From Candidatus Endomicrobium embiratermitis (GTDB lineage: Bacteria > Elusimicrobiota > Endomicrobiia > Endomicrobiales > Endomicrobiaceae), in contig WQYI01000001.1 of the NCBI GenBank assembly GCA_009781315.1, positions 248,001-312,000 on the forward strand: a stretch of DNA of 64,000 nt, read 5' to 3'. Under the pieces are notes generated by a model that saw only the letters and a list, made by a program, of their open reading frames with translations, made no database searches and had not been told where the DNA came from. The position numbers and the translations under genes were made by a program. Every line of letters begins with the position of its first letter. Position 1 is the stretch's first letter. Below, piece by piece: positions 21,613-60,098 of this stretch.

Positions 21613-23274
21613 TTAACTGCAGCCTTCACTCTTTTCAAACACGCGCATAAACGCTCCGAGTTCTTCGGATTTAAGAATTTTTGCGCTTATAAGAAATACC
21701 GCTGTTCCGGAAATTACGGCAAACGGTACCGATATAAACAGGCTTGGCGATATTTTACAGGCATAAAACGCGGCTATACCCGTCAATATTGCCCCGGTAA
21801 AAGATTTTACGGATGAGAATAATATTTTTTTCAGCCCGATTTTGCCCAATCTTTTCTTGAGCCATATTACTAAAAGCAAAAGGTTAAAATAAGAGGCCAC
21901 GGCAGTCGCAAGAGCAAGCCCGCCTACACCCATCGGATACATTAAAATGACGCACAAAATTACGTGCAAAATCATTGCCGCGGCAGCGCTTTTAACTGGG
22001 GTTTTTGTATCCTGAAACGCGTAAAAAGCGTTTGCAAAAATTTTTGCCAAAGCGTATGCCGGAAGGCCCAGCGAGTAGTAAAACAAAGCGTCGTTTGTCA
22101 TCAGCGACGCCGCAAAATCAAACTTACCGTGCTCAAACAAAAGTCTTATAATAGGCAATCCTATAACCATAAGGCCCGCCATTGCGGGAAGCAGCGTAAA
22201 AACGGAAAATCTTATTGAATGATTTAAAGAGTCTTTATATGTTGACATATCTTTTACGGCACAGGCTTTTGACAAAGCAGGTAAAGATACTGTCGCAAAA
22301 GCCAGTCCGAAAATAGCCAAAGGCAGCTGCATAACCCTGTTGGAATAATATAAAGCAGTAATCGAGCCGCTTGCAAGAAACGAAGCGCATATGGTATCGA
22401 CGAAACTGTTTATCTGGTCAACAGACAAGCCTATTATGGCCGGAATCATTAAAATCCAGATCCGTTTAATTCCTGGATGCTTATAGAAAGGCAGGGAGGA
22501 GGGAGGAGGGAGAAGAGATGCATTAACGGTCTCTTCTTTGTCATTCCGGCGAAAGCCGGAATCCATGTTGCCGTTAATTATTAATTGTTCATTATTAATT
22601 TTTAATTGTAGTTTTAAATGCCATCCCAAAGCCTTAAGTTTCGGATACTGCATAATAAAGTGCAATGCTCCGCCGGCTATTACGCTTATGGCAAGGCCTT
22701 TTATCTGATTTCCTCCGCCAAGCATTGGAGCAATCGCAAGCATATAGAAAATTTCCGATATACTTAACGCCGACGGGGCAAAGGCGGGTATAAAAAACGA
22801 TTGCAGCGTGTTTAAAATTCCCATCAAAAACGCGGCAAGGCATATAAACATTATAAAAGGAAACATCAGCCTTGTGAGTTCTATAGTCAGCTGCATTTTT
22901 TCAGGGTCGTTGGTAAATCCCCATGCGATTAGTTTAGCAAGGACAGGCGCGAAAAACATTCCGAGAATTGATACTATGGCAAGGATTACAAAAAGAGAGG
23001 TAAAAACGGCGTTTAAAAATTTTTGTGTTTCGCTTTTATCTTTTGTGTGCAGATATTCGCTGAAAACCGGAATAAAAGCGGCGTTAAAAGACCCTTCCCC
23101 GAAAAGCCTTCTGAAAAGGTTAGGTATTCGGAATGCCGCGTAAAAAGCGTCGGCAAACATTCCCGCTCCGAACAAATTCGCGACCAACATATCTCGGATA
23201 TATCCAAGAATTCTTGATAAAAACGTGCCGAACGCGGTTTTACCGGCGTTTTTAGTTAACGTACGATTTTCCAT
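21613..23274 (-). CDS. murJ: Lipid II flippase MurJ with in-frame repeat insertion
   Basis: MurJ moves lipid II across the inner membrane for peptidoglycan synthesis. The protein (about 553 residues, 14 membrane helices) starts TAFGTFLSRILGYIRDMLVA and contains FRRLFGEGSFNAAFIPVFSE, both family hallmarks. Between two helices, residues about 222-261 (KINNEQLIING, MDSGFRRNDKE, SLLPPPSSLPF) are encoded by a composite chromosomal repeat and are not expected in MurJ. The reading frame stays open. I take the ATG at 23274; the upstream extension would start at a TTG without Shine-Dalgarno. The TetR gene diverges from it. Confidence 0.95.
   Translation of the reverse strand: MENRTLTKNAGKTAFGTFLSRILGYIRDMLVANLFGAGMFADAFYAAFRIPNLFRRLFGEGSFNAAFIPVFSEYLHTKDKSETQKFLNAVFTSLFVILAIVSILGMFFAPVLAKLIAWGFTNDPEKMQLTIELTRLMFPFIMFICLAAFLMGILNTLQSFFIPAFAPSALSISEIFYMLAIAPMLGGGNQIKGLAISVIAGGALHFIMQYPKLKALGWHLKLQLKINNEQLIINGNMDSGFRRNDKEETVNASLLPPPSSLPFYKHPGIKRIWILMIPAIIGLSVDQINSFVDTICASFLASGSITALYYSNRVMQLPLAIFGLAFATVSLPALSKACAVKDMSTYKDSLNHSIRFSVFTLLPAMAGLMVIGLPIIRLLFEHGKFDFAASLMTNDALFYYSLGLPAYALAKIFANAFYAFQDTKTPVKSAAAAMILHVILCVILMYPMGVGGLALATAVASYFNLLLLVIWLKKRLGKIGLKKILFSSVKSFTGAILTGIAAFYACKISPSLFISVPFAVISGTAVFLISAKILKSEELGAFMRVFEKSEGCS
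22492..22609. repeat. Composite repeat inserted in frame in murJ
   Basis: Three repeat types side by side: a GGGAGGAGGGAGGAGGG purine tract, the palindrome CATTCCGGCGAAAGCCGGAA and a TTAATTATTAATTG tract with its TTCATTATTAATTT partner. Each type recurs elsewhere in the window (36880-36972, 27648-27717, 60012-60095). Confidence 0.8.
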
Positions 23275-23331
23275 ATTATCAATAATTTTATCAAATTTTA
23301 CAGTCAATCGCTAATTAACACGTATTAGCTA

Positions 23332-27647: not shown

Positions 27648-27717
27648 TGTCATCCCGTGCTTGACACGGGATCCAAGTTTAGTGAAAATGGATACCGGCT
27701 TTCGCCGGTATGACAAG
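27648..27717. repeat. Dispersed palindromic repeat ahead of the first permease gene
   Basis: Two hairpins: CCCGTGCTTGACACGGGATCC and ATACCGGCTTTCGCCGGTAT. They are bracketed by TTGTCAT and ATGACAAGAGG. The terminal AAGAGG doubles as the Shine-Dalgarno of the permease gene at 27726. Confidence 0.8.
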
Positions 27718-35634: not shown

Positions 35635-36216
35635 TTAAGCCTTCTTTATTATCAGCAGATTTCTTAATTTGTCGGCTCCTTTGTAAAAATTATACGTTAT
35701 GAGTATGGCTTTGGTATGTTTTTGGGTTTCTTTAAAAGGAATTTTTGATATTTTTTTCGCGATATCCGGATTTTGCAAAAGCCAGTTGTCAACATTTCCT
35801 ATTCCCGCGTTATACGCCGCCAAAACAAGTATCAAATTTTTGTTGTAATATGACATAAGCTGTGAAAGATAATAACTGCCGAACATTATATTTAATTCCG
35901 GATTTTTTAACATTTCCGGCGTATAATCCGGCATATCAAATTGTCCGGCAATTTCCTGCGCGGTTTTAGGCATTATCTGCATAAGACCTATTGCGCCTTT
36001 GTTTGACACGGCGTTAGGATTTAAATTAGATTCTCTTTTCATTACGGCGTCAACAAGCAGCGGATCTATGGAATACTTTTGAGAATACAAAGCGATTTGC
36101 TCTTTATACGGATTTTTATGAAAAACGCCGGTTTTATTGTTGATATAAACCAATAAATGGATTATCAGCGAGACTATGATAAGAACATATAATGAATATA
36201 CTATTTTCTTGTTCAT
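35635..36216 (-). CDS. Membrane-anchored lytic transglycosylase (SLT domain)
   Basis: 193 residues. An N-terminal anchor (VLIIVSLIIHLLVYI) is followed by a soluble lytic transglycosylase domain: the catalytic Glu in MKRESNLNP, GAIGLMQIMPKTAQ and LVLAAYNAGIGNV. It cleaves peptidoglycan glycan strands in the periplasm. It is a minimal form without the superhelical part of Slt70. Its ATG overlaps the miaB stop (ATGA). Confidence 0.93.
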   Translation of the reverse strand: MNKKIVYSLYVLIIVSLIIHLLVYINNKTGVFHKNPYKEQIALYSQKYSIDPLLVDAVMKRESNLNPNAVSNKGAIGLMQIMPKTAQEIAGQFDMPDYTPEMLKNPELNIMFGSYYLSQLMSYYNKNLILVLAAYNAGIGNVDNWLLQNPDIAKKISKIPFKETQKHTKAILITYNFYKGADKLRNLLIIKKA

Positions 36217-37328
36217 TTGTATTTTTTGATTTCTTCCAATACTATATTGTGACGCCTTTTCTTTTCCGCAAGAGAAACATCATCTTTCATTTGCGCGGCT
36301 TTTGTTCCGGGTCTTGGCGAATATTTAAAAACGAATAAAGCGTTAAACCGAATGTCTTTCACGGCCTGGAGAGTTTCGTTAAAATCTTTTTCCGTTTCGC
36401 CAGGAAAACCCACTATAATATCGGAAGTTATGTTTATATCCGGAATTTTACCGCGCAATTTTTTAATAAGCCCGAAATAATGAGCGTAAATGTACTTTCT
36501 GTTCATCAAAGACAATATTTTGTCAGACGCGGACTGCATAGGCAGATGAATGTATTTCTTTATTTTAGGCTCGCCTGCCATGGTTTCTATAAGCTCATCG
36601 CTTAAATCTTTGGGATGGCTTGTCATAAAACTTACGCTTTCAAGCCCGTTTATTTGGGCAATTCGTTTTATAAGTTTTGCGAAGTTTATGTCTTCATATT
36701 TATATGAATTTACGTTTTGTCCGAGAAAAACTATTTCTTTTATGCCGTTTTTTGCCAGATTTTCGCATTCGGCTATAATTTTTTGGCTGTCCAAACTTAT
36801 TTCATGACCGCGAACATAAGGAACTACGCAGTAGGAGCAGTAGTTGTCGCACCCGCGCATTATTGTCACATATTGTGACAAGGAGTAAGTAGAAGGGAGG
36901 AGGGAGGAGGTAAAATCAGACAAGTTCGAATTAGCATTTCTATTACATCCTCCCTTCTCCTTCATCCCTACTAATTGCTTTATAAGCTGTGCGGCTTTGT
37001 CTATATTTTTCGCGCCGACAATCAAATCGACGGATTTAAAGCGTTTTTTTATTTTTGTGCCTAGTCTCTCCGCCATGCAGCCGATGACAACGATTTTAAC
37101 GTTCGGTTTTTGAGTTTTATGTTCTTCCGCCCTGCCAAGATAAGAAAAAGCTTTTTGTTCGGCCTGAGCGCGTACGGAACAAGTGTTAAGAATTACAATG
37201 TCGGCATCAGCCAAAACGTCTGCTTTTAGCATTCCGTGAGACGAAAGAGCCAAACTAACTGCGTCAGAGTCGCATACATTCATCTGACAGCCGATTGTTT
37301 CAATTAAATATTTTTGAGTTTTAGACAT
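36213..37328 (-). CDS. miaB: tRNA methylthiotransferase MiaB, lacking TRAM, with in-frame repeat
   Basis: 371 residues. Adds the methylthio group to i6A37 of tRNA. The N-terminal UPF0004 domain keeps three cluster cysteines (ETIGCQMNVCDSD, LNTCSVRAQAEQK, VIGCMAERLG). The radical SAM motif is CDNYCSYC. Typical MiaB is 430-470 residues with a C-terminal TRAM domain. Here the protein stops after KKYK, before TRAM, and the next gene overlaps the stop. A repeat adds residues about 119-150 between the two iron-sulfur domains. N-terminal motifs favour MiaB over RimO or MtaB. Confidence 0.9.
   Translation of the reverse strand: MSKTQKYLIETIGCQMNVCDSDAVSLALSSHGMLKADVLADADIVILNTCSVRAQAEQKAFSYLGRAEEHKTQKPNVKIVVIGCMAERLGTKIKKRFKSVDLIVGAKNIDKAAQLIKQLVGMKEKGGCNRNANSNLSDFTSSLLPSTYSLSQYVTIMRGCDNYCSYCVVPYVRGHEISLDSQKIIAECENLAKNGIKEIVFLGQNVNSYKYEDINFAKLIKRIAQINGLESVSFMTSHPKDLSDELIETMAGEPKIKKYIHLPMQSASDKILSLMNRKYIYAHYFGLIKKLRGKIPDINITSDIIVGFPGETEKDFNETLQAVKDIRFNALFVFKYSPRPGTKAAQMKDDVSLAEKKRRHNIVLEEIKKYK
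36880..36972. repeat. Inverted repeat inserted in frame in miaB
   Basis: Arms GTAGAAGGGAGGAGGGAGG and CCTCCCTTCTCC...CCCTAC face each other across about 45 bases. The purine tract is the same family as in murJ. The insertion encodes a Ser/Asn/Leu-rich linker. Confidence 0.75.
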
Positions 37329-48855: not shown

Positions 48856-48976
48856 AACGACAATTAGGAATGAGGAATGAGGAGTTAGGAGCGCTGGAGC
48901 GGCGTTGCCGCAAATAATTATGTGCGCAAAGCGCACTCCACAATTCCTCATTCCTAACTCCTCACTCCTAACTGTT
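48856..48976. repeat. Long inverted repeat upstream of coaD
   Basis: AGGAATGAGGAATGAGGAGT units on the left and TCCTCATTCCTAACTCCTCA units on the right flank an inner part with TGTGCGCAAAGCGCACT. Together it could form a long hairpin between recG and coaD. Confidence 0.75.
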
Positions 48977-54031: not shown

Positions 54032-54050
54032 AAAACACCCTTTTACGACA

Positions 54051-54174
54051 AAGTGAAAAGTGTAAAGTTGAAAGTGAAATTGTCGTGTTTTCGCAAAGCG
54101 AAAACCTAAAATAAGTTTTGGCGAAGCCAAAACACAGTATTTCCACTTTGCACTTTTAACTTTGTACTTTGCCG
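54051..54174. repeat. Inverted repeat between msbA and the PorV-like gene
   Basis: Outer arms GACAAAGTGAAAAGTGTAAA and TTTGCACTTTTAACTTTGTA, with two inner hairpins TTTTCGCAAAGCGAAAA and TTTTGGCGAAGCCAAAA. Confidence 0.8.
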
Positions 54175-60011: not shown

Positions 60012-60095
60012 AATCCAATTAATAATTAATAATTAACAATTGAACGATAATTACAGAAAAAACGCTATTATTTGTTAATTGTAAATTGTTAATTG
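60012..60095. repeat. AT-rich inverted repeat upstream of lpxI
   Basis: Left tract CAATTAATAATTAATAATTA and right tract TTGTTAATTGTAAATTGTTA face each other. It is the same family as the AT-rich part of the murJ insertion and a short copy near 2115. Confidence 0.65.
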
Positions 60096-60098
60096 CCT

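Follow-up and report, generated by a model that had tools for sequence, protein, structure and literature searches.

How did a stretch of repetitive DNA come to encode about 40 residues of an essential membrane flippase? The gene in question lies within the window, the whole 64,000-nucleotide stretch of DNA analysed here, which belongs to a 1.9-Mb genome assembly of 25 contigs from a termite-gut bacterium of the Endomicrobium type, with genome neighbours that include Ca. Endomicrobium labiotermitis, neocapritermitis and macrotermitis at 79% identity. Its open reading frame matches MurJ in Pfam (4.7e-120) and the NCBIfam equivalog TIGR01695 (2e-123), with the family profile spanning both lobes of the protein. 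The gene is intact and single-copy, being the sole match in a search of the whole genome, and its frame is open throughout on a contig of 412 kb. A start at the ATG at 23274 (codon 12), giving 553 residues, is likelier than the TTG start. Relative to the sister species, the linker between TM6 and TM7 contains 32 extra residues; relative to most of the family, it contains 38.

The linker, which we take to lie in the cytoplasm following the general topology of MurJ, connects two lobes that are mobile in the transport cycle. Solved MurJ proteins have about 6 residues between their aligned halves (chain 7waw, 214 to 221), compared with about 44 in this protein (query 230 to 275). An AlphaFold model, built from a six-sequence alignment, is usable only as a guide because its mean pLDDT is 57. 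In the model, one flanking helix ends at residue 215 and the next begins near 267, while residues 216-262 of the 553-residue form are coil and the region of lowest confidence, with pLDDT of 24-31 over most of the block. A sequence-only reading of this DNA had placed the repeats at residues 222-261, which is correct provided that translation begins at codon 12 (ATG), and had proposed a hydrophilic loop between helices, in agreement with the linker lengths and the model. The insert peptide is presumably produced, and a candidate tryptic peptide across it would be INNEQLIINGNMDSGFR.

Table 1. Features of murJ and of related repeats, in window coordinates
Feature	Position	Strand	Remarks
murJ, lipid II flippase ORF	21613-23307	-	564 aa from TTG; Pfam and NCBIfam profiles
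Purine heptamer (AGGGAGG) tract	22488-22521		Coding strand CCTCCCT, encodes ASLLPPPSSLP; TRF and period-7 scan
Inverted repeat AGAAGAGA / TCTCTTCT	22511-22537		Adjoins REP; paired in predicted mRNA fold
Inverted repeat ATTAACGG / CCGTTAAT	22522-22578		Brackets REP
CGTC-type REP palindrome, GTC-ATTCCGGC-GAAA-GCCGGAAT-CCA, 26 bp	22540-22565	+	Coding strand encodes (M)DSGFRRND
AT heptamer (TTAATTA) tract	22573-22609		Coding strand encodes LQLKINNEQLIING
Second REP copy in window, ATACCGGC stem variant	27689-27714	-	Intergenic
MiaB heptamer tract, second genic one in window	36880-36912		Linker before radical-SAM domain, FTSSLLPSTYS

Three tracts make up the insert, located where that reading had put them and with the peptides it gave: a purine tract (SLLPPPSSLPF), a palindrome (NMDSGFRRND(KE)) and an AT tract (LKINNEQLIING). 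Its claim of three translated repeat families holds, by sequence, as far as translation within the linker is concerned, but not as to number: a single heptamer class takes in the purine tract as well as the AT tract, and the insert therefore contains two repeat classes. Across the palindromic unit, five of the six reading frames are open.

Judged by its anatomy, the palindrome appears to be a CGTC-1 REP of the dRS3 or rickettsial RPE-6 type. The repeat comprises a GTC tag, present in nearly all copies, an 8-bp covarying stem that starts with A-T pairs, a 4-nt GAAA loop and an unpaired CCA tail found in most copies; in the MurJ unit the tag reads TGTC, as a T precedes the GTC, and CGTC-1 REPs have CGTC, TGTC or CCTC at one end. 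Within the stem, 97.5% of cells are paired and 15 cells have changes on both sides, with slid controls far lower, and the variants include ATTCCGGC, ATACCGGC, ATTCCCGC and ATTCCGTT, among others. Allowing up to 2 mismatches, the pattern matches 24 genomic sites and a reversed control only 2, which is above chance; in all, the genome holds about 25 copies, mostly intergenic. Of 60 relatives searched, 22 contain the repeat, and G017 holds about 150 copies. Head-to-head dimers occur at L075, L076, L078, L079, L081, L085 and L098, with the partner often a hairpin of another stem and an AT-rich spacer of roughly 35-50 bp between the two. In MurJ, the unit occurs singly.

We infer that the REP has a mover, and we rejected the local RAYT-like gene for this role. 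No convincing REP copy was found beside this sole Y1_Tnp gene (L096:1981-2733), the one weak match near it having 6 mismatches and lying inside the next gene, and the gene scores 68.6 against an NCBIfam cut-off of 80. The repeats resemble REPIN/RAYT systems (PMC3116915) in their head-to-head hairpin pairs and in the presence of one RAYT-like gene in the genome, but the tag is of the CGTC rather than the GTAG type and the gene has no copy of this repeat at its flanks; we did not assign the repeats to that system. The RAYT-like gene is single and lies between housekeeping genes; G017 has a relative that is about as long. G017 also contains, at L122:1495-2160 and close to a contig end, REP copies arrayed in tandem in units of about 66 bp.

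The class to which the flanking tracts belong is genome-wide. The window contains seven period-7 tracts, compared with none for periods 5, 6, 8-11 and 13, and ten shuffles of the window yielded no period-7 tract. In 208 kb of sequence from this genome, we counted 49 against 0-8 for other periods; this sample includes stretches picked around REPs and is not random, so that genome-wide heptamer counts are extrapolations. The tracts are arrays of degenerate 7-bp units of many types, and several are paired in inverted orientation at a spacing of about 20-120 bp, in some cases around GC hairpins. Intergenic examples of such pairs lie at 48860-48974, 54048-54172 and 60013-60097, the first two enclosing hairpins such as GTGCGCAAAGCGCAC and TTTTGGCGAAGCCAAAA, and the three look like one composite repeat class.

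At the linker, most of the family reads KFNFNL-KHPGIK or close to it, and a short TIDGE/TIDNE-PFYKHP stands there in G003 and G027. The loop sequence is not shared by the orthologues compared, and relatives lack the 32-38 residues. In the MurJ tree, this genome (G000) is sister to the insert-free G003, with the insert-free G027 next (support 92/91 and 85/83); most simply, then, the REP and the CT tract were gained in the G000 lineage. The start of the AT tract aligns with AATTAACAATTGA / AATTGATAATGAAC of the insert-free relatives, which suggests that this tract grew from existing sequence. Longer linkers, each with a different sequence, are found in G030, G001, G004 and G017, as the proposal of a permissive site had implied; tracts of other species in this linker include KLQITNYK...NSTLHTPNSTL and RSQESGVNGG. 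Several of the differing inserts that relatives have at the MurJ, FolK and MiaB sites are repeat-derived.

Repeats are also translated in other core genes. In PrmC, a complete head-to-head REP dimer is read in frame as CHSGLDPESIVSKNNSLFLKFLKNANVDSRFCGND (L075:2683-2786) and is absent from 11 relatives. A loop of FolK contains the REP-encoded NVDSRFRGND; the same loop reads GSGFRRNG in G001 and is tract-like in G002 and G003. Where MiaB has its heptamer tract, relatives have tract-like inserts, and G039, from another family of the order, has DSCFRGND. TrpF also contains a heptamer tract. Overall, about 3 of about 27 REPs and about 4 of 49 heptamer tracts are truly genic, MurJ accounting for two of these tracts, with ORFs covering about 86% of bases, a scarcity that either purging or an intergenic preference would give. 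All three genic REPs use the same frame (DSxFRxND), three cases being too few to judge. Several candidates were set aside: a REP at a DUF4130 gene (L066:3472), probably upstream of the true start; ORFs of 80-99 residues over other REP copies, three of which had no family match; a lysine-rich run in FtsK (L082); and the tract at 54048, which precedes the likely start of its ORF. An abundance of genic REPs in the REP-rich G017 was likewise rejected, as the sampled in-ORF copies were mostly arrays in short, probably spurious ORFs. MiaB itself (36213-37328) has 371 residues compared with about 420-440 in more distant relatives, and is also short in G002, G003 and G017; its match to TIGR01574 ends at position 366 of 437, so that a C-terminal part (the TRAM region) seems to be missing.

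We favor, with a probability of about 0.83, the reading that the extra stretch of MurJ consists of repeat DNA, which inserted into a tolerant linker, in part expanded there, and lies in the reading frame. The process is best read as a near-neutral one, in which REPs and heptamer repeats would build up where a linker tolerates them and selection would weed out insertions that break the frame or the fold. Repeats would arise or land chiefly between genes; here, a singleton CGTC-type REP hairpin forms the core of the insert, and the flanking period-7 tracts, of a kind found throughout the intergenic DNA of this genome, probably vary in length through slippage. Within genes, only stop-free additions of a multiple of three at tolerant linkers would persist, others being purged; MurJ requires few residues between its N- and C-lobes, and such additions would thus survive selection there. 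The same filter may act on PrmC, FolK, MiaB and TrpF.

The strongest competing account is the insertion, in a single event, of a composite element with a GC hairpin core between two heptamer arms. Heptamer tracts are often paired as inverted arms, and hence the MurJ flanks could stem from one event; the successive insertions proposed by the sequence-only reading are accordingly not established, with an AT tract that shares its start with insert-free relatives and may be slippage-grown. A composite origin also draws on the intergenic pairs that enclose GC hairpins, on a REP between heptamer arms at L074:2724-2868, on the MurJ of G030, where two tracts flank a core, and on the inverted repeat that brackets the MurJ REP. 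However, the two flanks in MurJ are of different heptamer types, AT and CT, and are not mutually complementary, and the AT tract overlaps ancestral linker sequence. A heptamer tract lies within 70 bp of only 4 of 26 REPs, compared with 4% of random positions, an excess for which intergenic preference may account; we rejected an association of the two repeats as a rule. Overall, a composite insertion seems rather unlikely.

Targeting of these linkers, rather than tolerance, could also explain why one site holds several distinct repeat pieces and why the same few linkers are hit repeatedly. The frame shared by the three genic REPs also speaks against the favored reading, as far as so few cases can be judged. 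A broader proposal, more doubtful than the composite element, is that across Endomicrobia unrelated repeat classes enter time and again at certain inter-domain linkers (TM6-TM7 of MurJ, the FolK loop and that of MiaB), perhaps through DNA targeting, such that essential proteins would keep gaining new linker peptides from repeat turnover.

Selection for the insert, through a peptide or an mRNA hairpin that tunes the activity or expression of MurJ, is very improbable. The mRNA segment does fold far better than its shuffles (z = -4.7), and the lobes that the linker joins are mobile; however, the strength of the fold arises from the REP and the adjacent AGAAGAGA/TCTCTTCT pair, the hairpin being the REP itself, and the insert has no match in Rfam. 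Each related species differs in length and sequence, and the insert is missing from the sister species, so a regulatory role for the fold is not supported by conservation. Least probable of all is an assembly or binning artefact from repeats collapsed or misjoined in a metagenome, for despite the multi-contig assembly and the REPs near contig ends in G017, where repeats seem to break contigs, the open frame on its long contig, intact murJ sequence on either side and other assemblies with other inserts at the same site all speak against it.

The MurJ insert is a plain instance of a phenomenon already described; what is unusual is that, in different species, the same sites of the proteins are affected again. 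CGTC-1 REPs include dRS3 of Neisseria and RPE-6 of Rickettsia conorii, whose RPE-4/6 are classed as CGTC REPs, and intragenic CGTC REPs have already been described and suggested to be maybe neutral in linkers or loops (PMC3733652). The repeats described here share with them the GTC tag, the 8-bp stem beginning AT, the 4-nt loop, the CCA tail and the occurrence of head-to-head dimers, the predominant form in CGTC-1 REPs and present here at several loci, as well as a mainly intergenic location, some units in frame in genes and no transposase flanked by the repeat. They differ in their host, a member of the Elusimicrobiota, a phylum absent from the main text of that study, to which intragenic CGTC REPs are hereby extended, and in the position of the MurJ unit between heptamer tracts. 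Like Rickettsia palindromic elements, they are translated in frame within core proteins; unlike these, they are shorter than RPE-1-type units, and relatives have different repeat classes at the same site. The insert offers a clean comparison of how non-coding repeats turn into part of an essential membrane protein, with a sister species that lacks it, different inserts at this place in other species and parallels in other core genes, and the Endomicrobia are workable for asking at what rate REP and heptamer repeats feed peptide into tolerated linkers. What most deserves attention is that different repeats occupy the same linkers in different species.

The heptamer tracts, in turn, resemble the TAACTGA heptanucleotide repeats of Beggiatoaceae (PMC4679880), which have a period of 7, are mostly intergenic with few in ORFs, and for which slippage has been proposed. 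The tracts described here differ in being degenerate, with many unit types, and in often forming inverted pairs, some around GC hairpins. A near-perfect array of the heptamer GTATGCT lies at L076:3660-3791 and reaches the contig end.
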